Shown here in pieces: positions 1 to 10,860 of a stretch of 64,000 nucleotides of DNA. Positions within the stretch are counted from its first letter, which is position 1, and each line of letters opens with the position of its first letter. The notes beneath the pieces are model-generated. The model was given only the letters and a program-made list of their open reading frames with translations, ran no database searches and was not told the DNA's origin. The stretch is from Pseudomonadota bacterium (GTDB lineage Bacteria; Desulfobacterota; Desulfobulbia; Desulfobulbales; Desulfocapsaceae): NCBI GenBank assembly GCA_018821985.1, contig JAHJKP010000044.1, positions 1-64,000 of the forward strand. Reading direction: 5' to 3'. The position numbers and the translations under genes were made by a program.

Positions 1-99
1 AACAATATAGCCAAGAAATGGACCTTGCCAATCAGGGACTGGAAGGCAGCTTTGAACCGCTTCTCCATTTTGTTTGGCGACAGAATGCCGGTTTATTGA
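1..99 (+). CDS. IS256-family transposase, C-terminal end (partial)
   Basis: Reading frame 1 is open from the window edge to a TGA at 97-99 and encodes 32 residues beginning NNIAKKWTLPIRDWKAALNR. The block W-T-x-P-I-R-x-W-K-x-A-L-N, followed by a short hydrophobic stretch and a stop, is the usual C-terminus of Mutator/IS256-type (DDE) transposases, which cut and paste their own element. The catalytic DDE residues lie outside the window, so whether the enzyme is intact cannot be judged. It runs towards, and is convergent with, the truncated deaminase gene on the minus strand. The downstream 40 bases look like the element's terminal repeat, which supports the call. Confidence 0.8.
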   Translation, partial: NNIAKKWTLPIRDWKAALNRFSILFGDRMPVY

Positions 100-140
100 A
101 CATTAAAAAATGTCATTTACACAAAATTATTTACAGGCCC
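1..140 (+). mobile_element. Right end of an IS256-family insertion sequence
   Basis: After the transposase stop, the stretch at about 113-140 reads as CATTTACACAAAATTATTTA and then CAGGCCC. A TTTACACAAAA-type core and an end near GGGCCTGT (read inward) match the terminal inverted repeats usual for IS256-family elements. The outer edge is placed at about 138-141 because deaminase coding sequence resumes there (codons for ILFTT), while the last residues GL and the stop come from the IS end. The expected 8-9 bp target duplication would be the bases just right of 140; its partner is outside the window. Confidence 0.72.
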
Positions 141-1645
141 GTTGTAAACAAAATCCCTCCCTGAATGCCTTGGCCACCATATTTTGCAATTTGTAAAAAT
201 GCATTCTCTTCTGCATGAAGAGAACGAGTATGCACTTGATTTTTTTCCTTGTCCAACCTGTTTTTAATATCTTTGAAACAATAAGACACATTTATACCTT
301 TCAACTTACCCCTTATGTTACTTGATGTTACAATTGTTTTGTAAGTATCTTTAAGAAGAGTTCTGAACTCGATATTATTATTTTCGTAATAGCTAAAAGC
401 TTGTTTGTCTTCATTATTTAGGAGTTTTTCAGCGTTTCTTAGAATACAAGGAATTTGCCCTTCTGGTGTTGCATTCCATCCAATAGATTTAAGTGCATAA
501 TGACTATCTGTCACTGCTGCCCCTACTTGTCTTGAAAGACAACCTGAATTCAATTTTGCATTATGAGCTATTTGCATACACCTTTCATTGTGGGATGGTG
601 GCACAATCCCTGGATGCATGATGAGAGTAACGTATTTGGCTAATTGTTTTTTTACGTCTGACAGATCGTCTTCGCCAATTTGGTTGTTATTAATATGGAT
701 ATCCGCAATCTCAATACACTTTGGGAGGTTTTGAGAGAAAAACTGTTGTTCACCTTTAAGTTTTTCTGGATACTCTTTCTTATCTAATTGTTTGATTTGT
801 ATTTCGTTATAATTAAAATCTTTTTGCAGTCGTTTTATTCTATCATCGTTTTTGGTGCTGATTGCTAACAAATAAAAAGCAGAATATCTTTCTCTAAAAT
901 AGATTGCTTCATAAGGATTTCTCAAGGCGTCAATGACTACATATGTTGGTTTGTCTTGGTTTATTTTTCTTAATAATTTTATTATTTTGTTTACTCTTCT
1001 AGAAAGACGAAAGATTAAGTCTGGGTTGAATGTACTATCTAGAGCATTGCCAGAACATCTTATGTTATCCCCAATTAACTGGTACAATCTGGTGTAACTT
1101 TCTTCTGATAATTTATTTAACAATGTTTTTAATTTGAACGAGAATAGAGGAAGTTTTTTGAAATAAAATTCAAAAGATTGTTTTCTTCTCGAATCAATTT
1201 CATTTTGATCTTTACTGCCGGATTCCTCTATTTGTTTTCTTAATATGTGTATATCTTTCCGGTACTTATGTAGGCTGTCATATTCTTCTTTAATTGATTG
1301 TTCAAAATCTATTTTAATTTCTTCTTTTTCAATTTGTAATTGTTCGTAAATATATTGGCTAAAACTGGTAAAATCATTTTCAACTATGAATGATGTAATA
1401 ATATCTTTGAGTTGTATCCAATGAAATGGCTCCCAATTTTCTTTAATGTATCTATATATTATTTCGTACTTACGTTTTTCTGAAGAACCGTAATCATCCG
1501 GTGCCGGTAAATTCAAAACAGATATTTCTTGGCTTAACAATTGAGCGACAGTAGAACACCCTGATCCAGTTCTCCCAGTAAGACCAATAACAATAAAACC
1601 TTTGCGATTTTCATATAGTTTATTTAGTGCTTCAAATGTCTTCAT
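131..1645 (-). pseudogene. Anti-phage dCTP/dCMP deaminase, C-terminus cut off by an IS
   Basis: The 504-residue product has an N-terminal P-loop domain (GRTGSGCST, residues 24-32, with Cys where Walker A normally has Lys), a long charged helical middle (about 60-330) and a C-terminal deoxycytidylate deaminase domain starting near 345. That domain has the zinc/proton-shuttle motif HAE at 477-479. This architecture matches deaminases that deplete dCTP during phage infection (DcdV/AvcD, dCTP deaminase defence genes). Sequence stops at ILFTTGL, exactly where a PCxxC motif supplying two zinc-ligand cysteines should follow. The last two residues and the stop come from the IS terminal repeat, so catalytic loss is expected. 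The start at 1645 follows a purine-rich AAGAAAGAG. The gene is very AT-rich and begins about 30 bases after an attC-like site, as in a gene cassette. Confidence 0.8.
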
Positions 1646-1675: not shown

Positions 1676-1768
1676 ACCCAACGCTTCCCTTGAGGGGCGC
1701 GGCCAATGAACTTGACCGCTTCAGCTCCGCATATGTTTACCGCGTCCCTCTCTAAGCGTTTGTTGGGT
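1676..1768 (-). other. Integron attC-like recombination site
   Basis: The 93-bp stretch starts with ACCCAAC (1676-1682) and ends with GTTGGGT (1762-1768), fitting the RYYYAAC / GTTRRRY ends of attC sites. The inner arms also pair imperfectly: CGCTTCCCTTGAGGGGCGCG on the left against a CGCGTCCCTCTCTAAGCG stretch on the right. Read on the minus strand, ACCCAACAAACGCTT then AGAGAGGGACGCG resembles chromosomal-integron repeats of the Vibrio VCR type. It lies directly after the stop of one minus-strand gene and just before the start of the next, which is where an attC belongs. Confidence 0.75.
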
Positions 1769-1865: not shown

Positions 1866-2330
1866 TTAGAAAAAACCATTGCCTCGCTTTACGTTTCTAC
1901 TGAATTCTTCTGATTCTCTATTTAATCTCTCTGTAGTTTTGTAGTTCTGTGTGCAAACACGACATTCAAAGAAACCTTTGCCGTCAGTATGAAGGCGTGA
2001 TAATTTCTGTTTAGAATCATAGCAGTTCTGGCAATAAGGTTCCTCTTGCCCGTCAGAGTTTGACAAATAGTAGCAAGGCTGAATCCACTTGAGCTCTGCT
2101 TTTAATTTTGCCTCTGCAGTTAGTTGCCTTATTGTTTCGTCACGGTCGATAATTAACTGTTGGATTTCTGCTGCTTCCAGTTTTGCATCGGCAAGCGCTG
2201 AGACGAGTTCAGCTAGCTTCAGCTTAGTCTCTGCTTTCTCCAAACTAGTATCACTTTCGCGGATAAATTTAGCGATTTCGGTTGCTGTTTTCAGACTTCC
2301 TAAAAGGGAGCCTATTGATGCAAGATCCAT
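1866..2330 (-). CDS. Small coiled-coil and zinc-ribbon protein, probable gene cassette
   Basis: I do not recognise a named family. The 154-residue product starts MDLASIGSLLGSLK; this start is preferred over an upstream ATG at 2357 because GAAAGGAGA sits just before it. Residues about 25-80 are Ala/Glu/Leu/Lys-rich and predicted to be a long helix or coiled coil. The C-terminal part carries a zinc-ribbon-like pair (CQNC, then CRVC about 30 residues later) and ends with a charged tail. Such helix-plus-ribbon proteins are common in cassettes and phage-related islands, with unknown role. It is flanked by GTTGGGT at 2388-2394 upstream and the attC-like site downstream, giving a complete one-gene cassette layout. 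Confidence 0.7.
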   Translation of the reverse strand: MDLASIGSLLGSLKTATEIAKFIRESDTSLEKAETKLKLAELVSALADAKLEAAEIQQLIIDRDETIRQLTAEAKLKAELKWIQPCYYLSNSDGQEEPYCQNCYDSKQKLSRLHTDGKGFFECRVCTQNYKTTERLNRESEEFSRNVKRGNGFF

Positions 2331-2387
2331 ATTTCTCCTTTCGATATTATAACTCAATGGCTTGATGGCTTCTTAATTGGATTTAAA

Positions 2388-2394: not shown

Positions 2395-2804
2395 AGTGTG
2401 TTAAACAGAATGGGCCAAAATGGTGCCATGCAGATTCTGTCCTGTATCTTTCTTGAATAGCATGCAATGCCTATTTTCCCAACATATTCACATAACTTTT
2501 TGAGAGTACATGATGCGGCAGGCAAAAACAAGATCTTCAATAAAATAAAAGAATTGGGGCGGTTTAAGGATAGACGTGGCATGTCTCATATTCTTCTTAT
2601 TGTCACAGCGGTGTCAAATATGATACCTATTAACTTAATAGGACAATCGGGGGCAGGCCACGTTTATCTAAAATGAACGCATGACTGCCGGCGATACCGG
2701 GACGATGGCCGTTTTATCCTTATTACCAAGCAAAAGGTTGCGACATTAAACTCTTTCCTACCATTACTCAGCTGATCCAGGCCCGCGAGACCATCCGGCT
2801 GCTG
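2395..2804. other. Gap between cassette region and ABC exporter; possible coding remnant
   Basis: No intact gene is convincing. A plus-strand stretch at 2494-2545 reads FLRVHDAAGKNKIFNKI. It resembles FLRISDEAGENKFLKKI read at 9488-9540, with DNA identity interrupted by few changes, so both may be remnants of the same coding sequence. The frame of the ABC gene is open back to 2685 without an ATG. Confidence 0.4.
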
Positions 2805-4520
2805 GTGCCGTATTTCAAGAAATACCGGCAGCGGCTGCTCTGGGGGATCCTTGCCCTGCTGAGCACTGATCTTCTCCAGCTCTACATCCCCCGGGTGATC
2901 AAGCAGGCGGTGGACGCCCTGCAACTCGGCCAGGCCACTTCCGCCTCCCTCCTTCGCCAGGGTGGCCTGATCCTCTTCTTCGCCGTAGGCATCGCCCTCT
3001 TTCGCTTCACCTGGAGATATCTGGTCCTGGGCTTTTCCCGCCTCCTGGAACGAGACCTGCGCAGTCGTCTCCTGAGCCGTCTGGTGCGGTTGGATCGCCC
3101 CTTTTTCAATCGCCGCTCGGCGGGTGAGATCATGGCGCTTTCCGGCAACGATCTCACCAACGTCCAGCTGGCCTGCGGCATGGGCATCGTCTCCTTCATT
3201 GATGCCTTCCTGATGACCGGCGCAGCCGTATGTTTCATGGCCTACATCCATCCCGGCCTCACCTTCCTGGCCCTGGCGCCCATGCCGGTCCTGGCCATTC
3301 TGACCGGATTGCTCTCGGCCATGCTCCATAAACGCTACAACCGGGTCCAGGAACAGTTCTCCGACCTCACCGAGTTCGCCCGTTCCACCCTGATGGCCAT
3401 CCGGCTGATCAAGGCCTATACCCAGGAACAGCGCCAGACCGAGCAGTTCGACCGGCTGGGGAGAGAGTTCGTGCGCAACAATATCCGCCTGGCTCTGGTC
3501 CAGGGAGTCCTCACTCCCTTTTCCACCTTGATCGCCAGTACCAGTCTGCTGCTGGTCCTCTTTTTCGGGGGACGGCTGACCATTGCCGGCTCCATTTCCA
3601 TCGGCGACTTTGTGGCCTTCATGACCTACCTGGGGCTGTTGACCTGGCCGATGATGGCCATGGGCTGGGTGGCTAACCTTTTTCAGCGCGGGATCACCTC
3701 GCTGCACCGCATCAGCAGGGTGATGGAAGAGGAGCCGCTGTTGCGCGAGCCCCGGAACCCCTTGGCCATACCGGCCGTCACCAGCCTGTCTGTTCGCAAC
3801 CTCTCCTTCCGCTACGTTGGCCAGAATACCATGGCTCTCGACGACCTGAGCCTTGAGATAGCCCCCGGCCTGCTGGGCATCGTCGGTCGTACCGGCTCCG
3901 GCAAGTCGGCGCTGTGCCAGCTGCTGGCCCGTCTGTATCCGGTGGAGGACGACAGGTTGTTCCTGGCCGGGATCGATTACAACCGGCTCCCCCTGGCGGG
4001 ACTGCGGGCCAAGATCGCCTATGTGCCCCAGGAGACCATCCTCTTCTCCGATACCATCCGCAACAACATCGCCTTCGGCCGTCCCGGGGCCAGTGATGCA
4101 GAGATCGTGCAGGCGGCCCGGGCGGCTGGAATCCACGAAGAGATTGAGGCCTTCAAGGACGGGTATCAGTCACGGGTGGGGGAGAAGGGGCTGCTCCTCT
4201 CCGGTGGCCAGCGCCAGCGCCTCGCCCTGGCCCGGGCCCTGCTGCTGGACCGTCCCATCGTCATCATCGACGACGGACTCTCCGCCGTCGATACCGACAC
4301 CGAGCATCATATCATCGAGAATTTCTCCAGCTGGCTGCCGGGCCGGATCTGCATCCTGGTCTCGCACCGGGTTGCCCCACTCCTTTCGGCCGACCGGATC
4401 ATCGTCATGGAGAAGGGGAGCATCGCCGCCCAGGGCACCCACCTCCAGCTCTTGGAACTCAGCCCCTTCTACCGCACCATTTATCAGCACCAGACCACGG
4501 CCGGGGAGGCGGCAGCCTGA
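2805..4520 (+). CDS. ABC exporter half-transporter 1 (degenerate ATP site)
   Basis: The 571-residue product has a six-helix exporter membrane domain (about 1-290) and a C-terminal nucleotide-binding domain with Walker A GRTGSGKS, signature LLSGGQRQ and Walker B IVIIDD. The residue after Walker B is Asp in IIDDGLSAVD where a catalytic Glu is usual, so this is probably the non-hydrolysing half of a heterodimer, as in MdlA/SmdA or TM287/288-type pairs. The stop overlaps the next gene (TGATG), implying translational coupling. The start is uncertain: GTG 2805 has no clear ribosome site and the frame is open upstream to 2685 with only non-ATG codons. Substrate cannot be told; lipids or drugs are usual for such pairs. 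The gene is markedly GC-rich. Confidence 0.88.
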   Translation: MPYFKKYRQRLLWGILALLSTDLLQLYIPRVIKQAVDALQLGQATSASLLRQGGLILFFAVGIALFRFTWRYLVLGFSRLLERDLRSRLLSRLVRLDRPFFNRRSAGEIMALSGNDLTNVQLACGMGIVSFIDAFLMTGAAVCFMAYIHPGLTFLALAPMPVLAILTGLLSAMLHKRYNRVQEQFSDLTEFARSTLMAIRLIKAYTQEQRQTEQFDRLGREFVRNNIRLALVQGVLTPFSTLIASTSLLLVLFFGGRLTIAGSISIGDFVAFMTYLGLLTWPMMAMGWVANLFQRGITSLHRISRVMEEEPLLREPRNPLAIPAVTSLSVRNLSFRYVGQNTMALDDLSLEIAPGLLGIVGRTGSGKSALCQLLARLYPVEDDRLFLAGIDYNRLPLAGLRAKIAYVPQETILFSDTIRNNIAFGRPGASDAEIVQAARAAGIHEEIEAFKDGYQSRVGEKGLLLSGGQRQRLALARALLLDRPIVIIDDGLSAVDTDTEHHIIENFSSWLPGRICILVSHRVAPLLSADRIIVMEKGSIAAQGTHLQLLELSPFYRTIYQHQTTAGEAAA

Positions 4521-6328
4521 TGGAGCACGGTTTCGGATATTTTGAGGAAGATCGACTCAAGAAGACCGGCGACCTCCGTCTCTGGCAACGGATCGCCCGC
4601 TATGTTCTGCCGTACTGGAAGTCGGTCTCTCTGGCGATTGTCCTGTCGCTGGCCATCACCGGCTGCAGCCTGGCCCTGCCGTACCTGATGCGCCTGGCGG
4701 TCGACGGTTTCATCACCAATCTGCAACCACCTCTGGGGGAGAGGCTGAGCGGGGTGGCAGGACTTGCCGGCTCCTTTCTTTTGCTCATGGTGACCGGCTT
4801 TGTTGCCAACTTTCTGCAGGTGGTGGTGCTGGAGTGGGCGGGGCAGCGGATCATGCACGCCCTGCGCCAGGACCTCTTCCGGCACCTGATCGGCCTGGCC
4901 AACCCTTTCTTTAACCGCAACCCGGTGGGCAAGCTGGTTACCCGGCTGACCAACGATATCCAGAACATGTACGAGATGTTCACCTCGGTCATCGTTTCCC
5001 TGTTCAACGACCTGGCGCGGCTGGTGGGGATTCTGGTAATCCTGCTGCTGATGAACTGGCGGCTGGCCCTGATGATGCTGGTGTTGGTGCCGTTGATCCT
5101 CTTTAACACCGTCCTCTTCAGCCGTCTGGCCCGCCTGGCCTTCCGCGACATCCGCACCCAGCTGGCCCGGCTCAACTCGTTTCTACAGGAGGCGATCGGC
5201 GGCATCAGCATCATCCAGCTCTTCTCCAGGGAAGAGTATACCCGCGCCCGGTTTGAGGATCTGAACGAGGCCTACATGCAACGGAGCCTCTATCAAATCA
5301 AGATCTTCGGCATCTTCATGCCGCTGCTCGAGGTCCTGAGCTCTCTGGCCATTGCCCTGATCATCTGGTACGGCGGCGGCCAGATCATCGAAAACCAGAT
5401 GAGCATCGGCATGCTGGTCGCCTTTCTCGCCTATATGCGCTTATTTTTTCAGCCCTTGCGGGAACTTTCCCAGAAGTATTCGGTGGTGCAGTCGGCCCTG
5501 GCCTCGGCCGAGCGTATCTTCCAGCTTTTGGACACCGAAAATACCCTGACCATCCCCGTCAGTCCGGTGCGCCCAACACAGGTGCGCGGGGAGATCGATT
5601 TTTCCGGGGTGACCTTCGGCTACAACCCGGAGCGGCCGGTGCTGCGTGATCTCACCTTTAAGGTTGCGCCGGGCGAGACCCTGGCCATAGTCGGAGCCAC
5701 CGGCGCCGGCAAGACCACCATAATCAGCCTGCTGGAACGGTTATACGACCCCGACCACGGCGTGGTGAAGGTGGACGGGATTGACCTTCGAGATCTCGAT
5801 CCCCTCTTTCTGCGCGGCCAGATCGGGCTGGTCATGCAGGAGGTGTATCTCTTCCCGGCCTCGGTGCGGGAGAATATCGTGCTCGGCCTCCAGTTGAGTG
5901 AGGCGCGCCTGAGCGAGGTGATTGCCACCGCCCAGCTCACCAGCCTGATCGCAGGACTGCCGGAGGGGCTCGAAACCCGCATCGGCGGGACGGGCCTCGA
6001 TTTTTCCGCCGGCCAGCGCCAGCTCCTGGCCCTGGCCCGGGTGCTGGCCCGCGACCCGCGCATCCTGGTGCTGGACGAGGCCACCGCCTCCATTGACACC
6101 GAAACGGAAATGCTCATCGAGAAGGCCATGGCCGCCACCCTGGCCAACCGGACCAGTGTGGTCATCGCCCACCGGCTCTCCACCATCCGCAGGGCCGACC
6201 GCATTCTGGTCATGGATCACGGCCGTCTGGTCGAGGCAGGAAGCCACGAGGAGTTGATGGCGCGTCCCGGCATCTATCAGCGCCTGCAGATCCTGCAAAG
6301 CAACAACTCCAACGCCCGGACGGCCTGA
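4520..6328 (+). CDS. ABC exporter half-transporter 2 (catalytic half)
   Basis: The 602-residue protein has a six-helix membrane domain (about 30-320) and an ATPase domain with Walker A GATGAGKT, a signature of the form FSAGQRQ and Walker B LVLDEATASID, so the catalytic Glu is present here. It would pair with the product of the overlapping upstream gene, whose matching position is Asp, to make a heterodimeric exporter in the inner membrane. The FSAGQ signature in place of LSGGQ is a mild deviation seen also in MdlB-like proteins (SVGQ). Start ATG 4520 shares its A with the preceding TGA. Substrate unknown. Confidence 0.9.
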   Translation: MEHGFGYFEEDRLKKTGDLRLWQRIARYVLPYWKSVSLAIVLSLAITGCSLALPYLMRLAVDGFITNLQPPLGERLSGVAGLAGSFLLLMVTGFVANFLQVVVLEWAGQRIMHALRQDLFRHLIGLANPFFNRNPVGKLVTRLTNDIQNMYEMFTSVIVSLFNDLARLVGILVILLLMNWRLALMMLVLVPLILFNTVLFSRLARLAFRDIRTQLARLNSFLQEAIGGISIIQLFSREEYTRARFEDLNEAYMQRSLYQIKIFGIFMPLLEVLSSLAIALIIWYGGGQIIENQMSIGMLVAFLAYMRLFFQPLRELSQKYSVVQSALASAERIFQLLDTENTLTIPVSPVRPTQVRGEIDFSGVTFGYNPERPVLRDLTFKVAPGETLAIVGATGAGKTTIISLLERLYDPDHGVVKVDGIDLRDLDPLFLRGQIGLVMQEVYLFPASVRENIVLGLQLSEARLSEVIATAQLTSLIAGLPEGLETRIGGTGLDFSAGQRQLLALARVLARDPRILVLDEATASIDTETEMLIEKAMAATLANRTSVVIAHRLSTIRRADRILVMDHGRLVEAGSHEELMARPGIYQRLQILQSNNSNARTA

Positions 6329-9666: not shown

Positions 9667-10860
9667 ATGGGTAAACAAGGTCGTCCAGACAGTGACAAGA
9701 AAATCGGGGTGCTGATCGGTGGCTCCGGCCTGATCGGCGGTGGCATCCTCCATTATTTCAAGACCAGGAACGAAGGCGAGTTTGAGCTGCTGGCACCCAA
9801 CAGTAAACGATTAAGTATACGTGATCCTAAGGATATTCGTCTCTATCTTAAACGGAATACACCTGATTTTATCATCAATACCGCCATCACCTCCATTGAC
9901 AGTAATCCCCTTCTTACTTTGGAGACAAATTACCTTGGCACTGTCAACCTGGCCAGGGCTGCGGTGGATCTGGCTATTCCCTATATCCATTTCAGTTCTG
10001 CTGCCGTCATGCCGACAGGGGAAAATCTTGCTGAAGATGATCAACTGAGCTTAAGCCCAAAACTGGCCAACTATCCCAAATCCAAATTACTGGCGGAACT
10101 GGCCCTGCAGGAAATGCACCGCACCCTCGGCCTTGATTATACCAATATCCGTCTGGCCGTGGTTTATGGAGCGCACGATCACAAAATCCAGGGCTTTCAA
10201 CGGATGCTCTTTGCGCTGGCTGATCAAACCATGCCCTTTCTTTTCACCAATCATCAGGCCATGCATTCGTACTCCAATGCGAAAAAAGTCCCATCTTTTG
10301 TCCATCATATCCTGAACCACCGGGAAGAGTTCAGCGGTCAGACCTTTCACTTTGTCGATCCCAATCCAGTGTTATTGAGTCAACTTATTCTCACCATTAA
10401 GTCTTACATGGAGCTGAAGCGGCCAAAGGAAATTTTCCTGCCCTATCCCTTGGCCAGGTTTGGAGCCGGTTGCATGGTAGCGTTAACCAGGATGCTGAGA
10501 CGGATCGGCATTGAGTCCAAGATGCCGCCCGAGTTGATGTTTCTGCAGAATTTTTATCAGACGCAGAGTCTGTCGGCGACAAAACTCAGTCAATCGAGCT
10601 TTGTCGATCCGGATCCGAGGATCACTGTTTTTACCGAATTGCCTATGTTGATCCAATATTATCTGACTCGCTGGGAAGATCTTAATCTCATTACTCCGGA
10701 TGATAAGATTTTCTTTGATCCAAGTAAACGGGCCGATATCTTTCTGAATGATCCTGAACAATTGCTCATATCCCTGAAGGATGAGACATCTTTTTCTTTT
10801 CTGGATACCTGCACGTGGCCACGTGGTGGTAATGTCGATTCCGAGACAGAAGATAAATAA
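9667..10860 (+). CDS. Extended SDR family NAD(P)-binding protein (epimerase/dehydratase-like)
   Basis: The 397-residue product has a Rossmann nucleotide-binding motif GGSGLIGGG (residues 18-26) and the SDR active-site pair in NYPKSK (Y136, K140) with a serine region HFSSAA at 108-113. These identify an extended short-chain dehydrogenase of the sugar epimerase/dTDP-rhamnose reductase type. The C-terminal third (about 290-397) goes beyond the usual fold and matches nothing I recognise. The substrate is unknown. It is followed on the same strand by a PEP-carboxykinase-like gene 216 bases away, and the pair may work together, but a separate promoter candidate lies between them. Confidence 0.8.
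   Translation: MGKQGRPDSDKKIGVLIGGSGLIGGGILHYFKTRNEGEFELLAPNSKRLSIRDPKDIRLYLKRNTPDFIINTAITSIDSNPLLTLETNYLGTVNLARAAVDLAIPYIHFSSAAVMPTGENLAEDDQLSLSPKLANYPKSKLLAELALQEMHRTLGLDYTNIRLAVVYGAHDHKIQGFQRMLFALADQTMPFLFTNHQAMHSYSNAKKVPSFVHHILNHREEFSGQTFHFVDPNPVLLSQLILTIKSYMELKRPKEIFLPYPLARFGAGCMVALTRMLRRIGIESKMPPELMFLQNFYQTQSLSATKLSQSSFVDPDPRITVFTELPMLIQYYLTRWEDLNLITPDDKIFFDPSKRADIFLNDPEQLLISLKDETSFSFLDTCTWPRGGNVDSETEDK

Follow-up and report, generated by a model that had tools for sequence, protein, structure and literature searches.

Evidence that an IS256-family insertion truncated an anti-phage dCTP deaminase gene at a variable chromosomal spot in a Desulfocapsaceae genome

A contig from a member of the Desulfocapsaceae opens with the tail of a transposase, towards which an anti-phage deaminase frame runs from the right and stops just short of the place where its second zinc motif should follow. 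The question raised by this arrangement is whether an insertion sequence has broken the gene and, if so, what was broken, in what surroundings and with what outcome. The window analyzed here comprises the first 64,000 nucleotides of contig JAHJKP010000044.1 (assembly GCA_018821985.1) and begins at the first base of that contig, which we call C50; C-numbers denote contigs of the same genome (G000), and other genomes carry their own G-numbers.

The insertion element and its two junctions

The right end of an IS256-family element occupies positions 1–140 of the forward strand. An open frame ending in KKWTLPIRDWKAALNRFSILFGDRMPVY* supplies the last 32 codons of a transposase (1–96, with the stop codon at 97–99), and a terminal inverted repeat at 111–140 pairs with the IS end on contig C40 at 22 of 30 positions, such that the two ends are imperfect inverted repeats. 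The same 140 bp are found unchanged at the starts of C51 and C52 and as a 99% copy inside C7, and the left edge of the window is thus an assembly break within a repeated IS. A pattern search of the assembly places the right IS end at four sites (C50, C51, C52, and C7) and finds the opposite end at the starts of four contigs (C26, C27, C40, and C56). Sequences flanking the right-end copies diverge after position 140/141; the end was placed at 140 because the target duplication described below starts next to it.

Transposase_mut (PF00872) has no match in this assembly and the body of the IS is absent from it, as would be expected for a multicopy repeat left unresolved by assembly. The junction is therefore spread over two contigs, neither of which spans the insertion. 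A full-length sibling element of ~1.33 kb is present in G477, a genome of the same genus; its left and right ends are 97.8% and 93.5% identical to ours, respectively, and its 422-residue protein scores 415.5 bits against Transposase_mut. Members of the IS256 family carry imperfect terminal inverted repeats of about 20–30 bp and duplicate 8–9 bp of target. The first-pass annotation had read an IS256-type transposase tail at 1–99 and a terminal repeat ending near 140, and both readings hold, the former through the stop at 97–99 and the match of the sibling, the latter through the pairing with the other IS end. The same 140-bp IS end also occurs, with 100% identity, on contig C11 of G475, another genome of the genus (locus L109, 53–192), which suggests recent spread.

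The first 138 bp of contig C40 belong to the other IS end and are followed by the in-frame remainder of the deaminase, FTTASPCELCAKKAYHLGI; the sequence directly after the IS end, TTTACAACAGCTAGTCCATGTGAGCTTTGT, translates as FTTASPCELC. The 8 bp at 141–148 of the window (GTTGTAAA on the forward strand, TTTACAAC on the gene strand) recur at C40:139–146, so that, read on the gene strand, TTTACAAC adjoins the IS on both contigs. When the flanks of four left and three right ends were paired in all 12 combinations, only C40/C50 and C56/C52 agreed at 8/8 positions, the rest at 0–5; the right end on C51 and the left ends on C26 and C27 have no partner of equal flank. When the two halves are joined so that the eight bases occur once, they encode a single protein of 576 residues. 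The other IS end, an 8–9-bp copy of the bases right of about 140, and the missing C terminus with PCxxC are what the first-pass annotation had proposed to look for beyond the element, and C40 supplies all three. A 63-base probe for the empty site matches the assembly of this genome only as two overlapping halves, with no uninterrupted copy.

The deaminase and what remains of it

The interrupted gene lies on the reverse strand at 131–1645 as an ORF of 504 residues that constitutes the N-terminal part of an anti-phage dCTP deaminase. Its product matches the PADLOC dCTPase model with an E value of 4.9e-103 and the family NF041025 (anti-phage dCTP deaminase) over positions 1–364 of 437 with 308.1 bits; a family search of the same genome places NF041025 positions 360–435 at C40:133–336; taken by itself, the C40 part scores 81.3 bits. 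The curated cut-off of 400 bits is reached by neither half, and unbroken relatives of the subgroup (L048, L175, and L124) also score only 386–397. Near the N terminus, at 1550–1585 (reverse strand), lies a motif conserved in alignments, GLTGRTGSGCST, that we read as P-loop-like. The first zinc motif, of the HAE type, is present as LHAEENA at 200–220 (reverse strand) in the region of PF00383, as seen in alignments, and its partner, PCELC, resides on C40.

The truncated frame keeps 502 of the 576 residues and then continues with Gly, Leu, and TAA (131–133), all inside the inverted repeat; it ends GGILFTTGL*, and the last Thr codon takes its third base from the IS. The insertion deprives the protein of its 74 C-terminal residues, PCxxC included, and this motif, absent from the interrupted product, is found in frame on C40. 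It had been claimed from the window alone that the frame stops at TTGL just before PCxxC and that its last two residues and stop codon derive from the IS; the far half on C40 and the position of these codons within IS sequence bear out both statements.

In deaminases of this fold, zinc is bound by the HAE motif together with the two cysteines of PCxxC. In the unbroken relative L048, the PF00383 match spans both zinc motifs, and the top PDB match of L048 is a dCMP deaminase, with an alignment that covers both motifs; the closest solved structures belong to dCMP deaminases (4p9c, E = 6.5e-10). Since the HAE motif is separated from PCxxC, the product should form no zinc site and should be inactive, and on the basis of its sequence we strongly infer that the truncated deaminase has lost its activity. 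A search of passages of PMC9455884 yielded no zinc-site data of use. According to PMC10511110, AvcD depletes deoxycytidine nucleotides during phage infection and is held in check by an RNA, AvcI; no AvcI-like RNA was identified here, the Rfam search of the window giving only a tRNA.

The 576-residue reconstruction aligns end to end with proteins from Picosynechococcus, Geminocystis, Pantoea, Lachnospira, Aeromonas, and genome G047, and the junction reads TTASPCELC in all of these except Geminocystis (TTASPWELC). The Geminocystis gene, on a plasmid of Geminocystis sp. NIES-3708 (L036, 3986–5869), has thereby lost one zinc cysteine and is otherwise intact. Contigs of named genomes were scanned with an alignment query, which gave relatives, and with a single-protein query, which gave none. 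The named loci considered are the best 80 of at least 231 relatives and were found partly through the pattern LHAEENA; they are silent on breaks at or before this motif and give no rate of loss. Among these best 80, a single open frame contains both LHAEENA and PCxxC in 75, SC or CC replaces PC in a frame that runs on in 4, and a frameshift just before PCELC is present in 1, that of Nitrosomonas sp. HPC101 (L116). This frameshift, real or a sequencing error, lies close to the position at which the IS is inserted here.

We searched 395 sampled genomes of the phylum with NF041025 at E ≤ 1e-20. Of 21 matching genomes, 13 had matches covering only positions ~325–404, like ordinary dCMP deaminases, and were set aside. 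Eight deaminase-type genes were left, of which those in G220, G267, G148, G348, and G047 (the last to the end of its contig) are open across the domain; the stop flagged in G348 sits at the end of the match, and the frame before it is open. The other three are broken, by the IS in the genome studied here, by an in-frame TAG in G297, and into pieces in G189, although 3/8 is a small number and draft genomes may contain errors. Within the genus, matches came from 3 of 17 genomes, our own among them; the two copies in G475 and the one in G468 are without internal stops. Of 50,697 phage records, 2 matched, weakly. Among plasmids, 51 records matched, 7 of them with coverage of 80% or more.

The chromosomal spot and a possible integron origin

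To the right of the deaminase, genomes of the genus match the window from ~2395–2416 or further right and not leftward. The edge of the conserved chromosome, as given by these matches, lies at ~2395 and is followed by a first ABC-transporter gene, recognized by its ABC domains, at 2805–4520 (forward strand; 2395–4520 in all). Between this edge and the deaminase, an ORF of 163 residues at 1866–2357 (reverse strand) matches no family, and the stretch 1760–2368 recurs in G446 at 83% in another context. A dispersed repeat of ~190 bp at about 2392–2580 marks the edge of the conserved chromosome and is also found on C54 and C4 of the same genome and in several relatives of the genus.

On C40, the deaminase remainder is followed by genes that we read as a HigB-like ORF, rlmN, a phosphoesterase, and a DEAD-box helicase. 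In G477, G469, and G471, this block and the ABC-transporter flank occur on a single contig, separated by other genes and not always in the same order, which supports the neighborhood of C50 and C40; G376, G478, and G357, in which the flanks are on separate contigs, were left out of the count. The genes between the flanks encode a DarT-type protein (83.1 bits), an ADP-ribosylglycohydrolase, and a UvrD-like helicase in G477; a DUF4062 protein, a ThsB-type TIR protein (62.7 bits), and a SLATT protein in G469; and an ATPase with weak AAA matches in G471. The spot between the ABC-transporter pair and the rlmN/DEAD-box block thus appears to be variable and often to hold defense-type genes. In the genome studied here, it runs from position 2395 of the window to ~500 on C40 (L016), and its content differs in each species with a counterpart (L107, L101, and L207).

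The deaminase gene may have arrived at this spot as an integron cassette. A probable attC site at 1676–1768 (reverse strand), with the ends ACCCAAC...GTTGGGT, terminates 30 bp before the deaminase ATG; these ends are attC-like by the consensus. The 93 bp form an imperfect hairpin that folds better than all 200 shuffled sequences on either strand (z about −4.1), and the site is the only one of its kind in the window, compared with two matches in 400 kb of random sequence. Downstream of the gene, a search for a complete attC yielded none, only a half-site, AACCCAAC. Palindromic repeats of the type AGGGGTCAG...AAAATTA follow the deaminase at L016 442–482 and 1555–1590, where the second half of an attC would be expected. 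An integron integrase (429.2 bits; cut-off 265) is encoded at C16:47506–48456, on a contig other than those of the deaminase locus and not adjoining it.

Two named relatives have this deaminase type inside integrons. In Vibrio intestinalis (L124), the same type of deaminase lies between two attC-like sites, 3819–3953 and 5822–5926, and in a methanotroph symbiont of Bathymodiolus (L175, 1042–2028 and 3842–3939), two ORFs separate it from an integrase of the integron type (436.9 bits), and it directly follows an attC-like hairpin that was missed by the scans, recognized by eye, and then folded. The association is not general, since a relaxed attC scan gave 1 of 76 named loci upstream (L124) versus 1.9 expected by chance and 4 of 78 downstream versus 2.1 expected. 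Elsewhere in the genome, on C43 (L042, ~10715–10805), a second attC-like stretch that is 79% like window 1691–1762 lies between genes that we read as TrmO-like and as a ZIP-like transporter. In two Pseudomonas strains (L142, 3659–3782, and L157, 3648–3768), the deaminase is preceded, at a distance of a few hundred bases, by a similar long inverted repeat.

Weighing of the readings and comparison with known systems

The locus is best explained by an IS256-family insertion that truncated and presumably inactivated an anti-phage deaminase carried at a variable spot, a reading to which we assign a probability of about 95%. The element (~1.33 kb long, should it resemble the G477 sibling) jumped into a DcdV/AvcD-type gene and duplicated 8 bp; the reading frame now enters the inverted repeat and terminates, parting the two zinc motifs and leaving a product that is predicted to lack the zinc site and to be inactive. 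The gene itself was cargo of a spot that differs between related species, possibly brought in as a cassette. The proposal in the first-pass annotation that an IS256-family element interrupts the gene before its second zinc motif is confirmed by the duplication, the in-frame PCELC, the paired IS ends, and the synteny. One could instead suppose that the ends of C50 and C40 are unrelated repeat ends brought together by an assembly artifact, given that each contig terminates in a repeat and the body of the IS is missing; equal 8-bp flanks, a conserved protein that continues exactly and in frame, and the co-location of the two flanking blocks on a single contig in three relatives make this extremely unlikely, and a chance match of contig ends is ruled out by the duplication and the synteny. 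That TTGL is the natural end of the deaminase, or that the protein is functional in a shorter form, has in its favor a frame open to residue 504 and is of practically negligible probability, as the Gly, Leu, and stop are IS sequence and 79 of the 80 named loci (the best 80 of at least 231) retain the second motif, exactly or with one residue changed. None of these 80 ends at TTGL, the observation on which the first-pass annotation would have abandoned its reading, and a natural end there is rejected.

Two further explanations accept the insertion and differ in its consequence. The IS could act as a reversible switch, with a self-harmful deaminase that is mostly off and is restored by rare precise excision under selection by phage attack. 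The insertion is clean, the 8-bp duplication is intact, and PMC5649170 describes reversible IS256-family insertion in biofilm genes of Staphylococcus and Pseudoalteromonas; however, the assembly holds no empty-site copy, although a single-consensus assembly could hide a minority. We regard such a switch as very unlikely, and the earlier suggestion of precise excision is left without support by the lack of an uninterrupted copy. It is highly improbable that the truncated protein, whose N-terminal half is complete and whose frame is open, has been kept for a new role such as nucleotide binding or the poisoning of an intact deaminase, as a search of the genome gave no second copy of this deaminase type and nothing indicates expression. 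The idea that the gene was lost because it was toxic or costly likewise finds no support: three broken genes of eight are too few, and therefore provide no argument for selection.

With simple truncation as the preferred reading, the locus provides a clean record of a phage-defense gene lost to an insertion sequence, an ordinary route by which such genes disappear, and the insertion explains why contig C50 ends where it does. The setting is of wider use, being a species-variable spot with defense-type genes in several species, and there are hints of a deaminase that sometimes travels as an integron cassette.

With the IS256 family, the element shares imperfect inverted repeats and 8-bp duplications, and its G477 sibling has a Mutator-type transposase; the transposase of our own copy is visible only at its two ends, where its tail and start can be read as such. 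Phase variation mediated by IS256 (Staphylococcus and Pseudoalteromonas; PMC5649170) likewise involves an element of the same family cleanly inserted in a gene and differs in its excision, which is not seen here. Integrons that carry defense genes are already in print (PMC12409362). Like such cassettes, the deaminase has an attC-like site just upstream and an integrase elsewhere in the genome, with the Vibrio and symbiont loci as comparable cases; it differs from them in being without a complete downstream attC and without an adjacent integrase. The closest likeness in the protein itself is to DcdV/AvcD (NF041025; PADLOC dCTPase), with which the joined halves share domain order, LHAEENA, PCELC, and a full-length alignment, the difference here being the IS that stands before PCELC.
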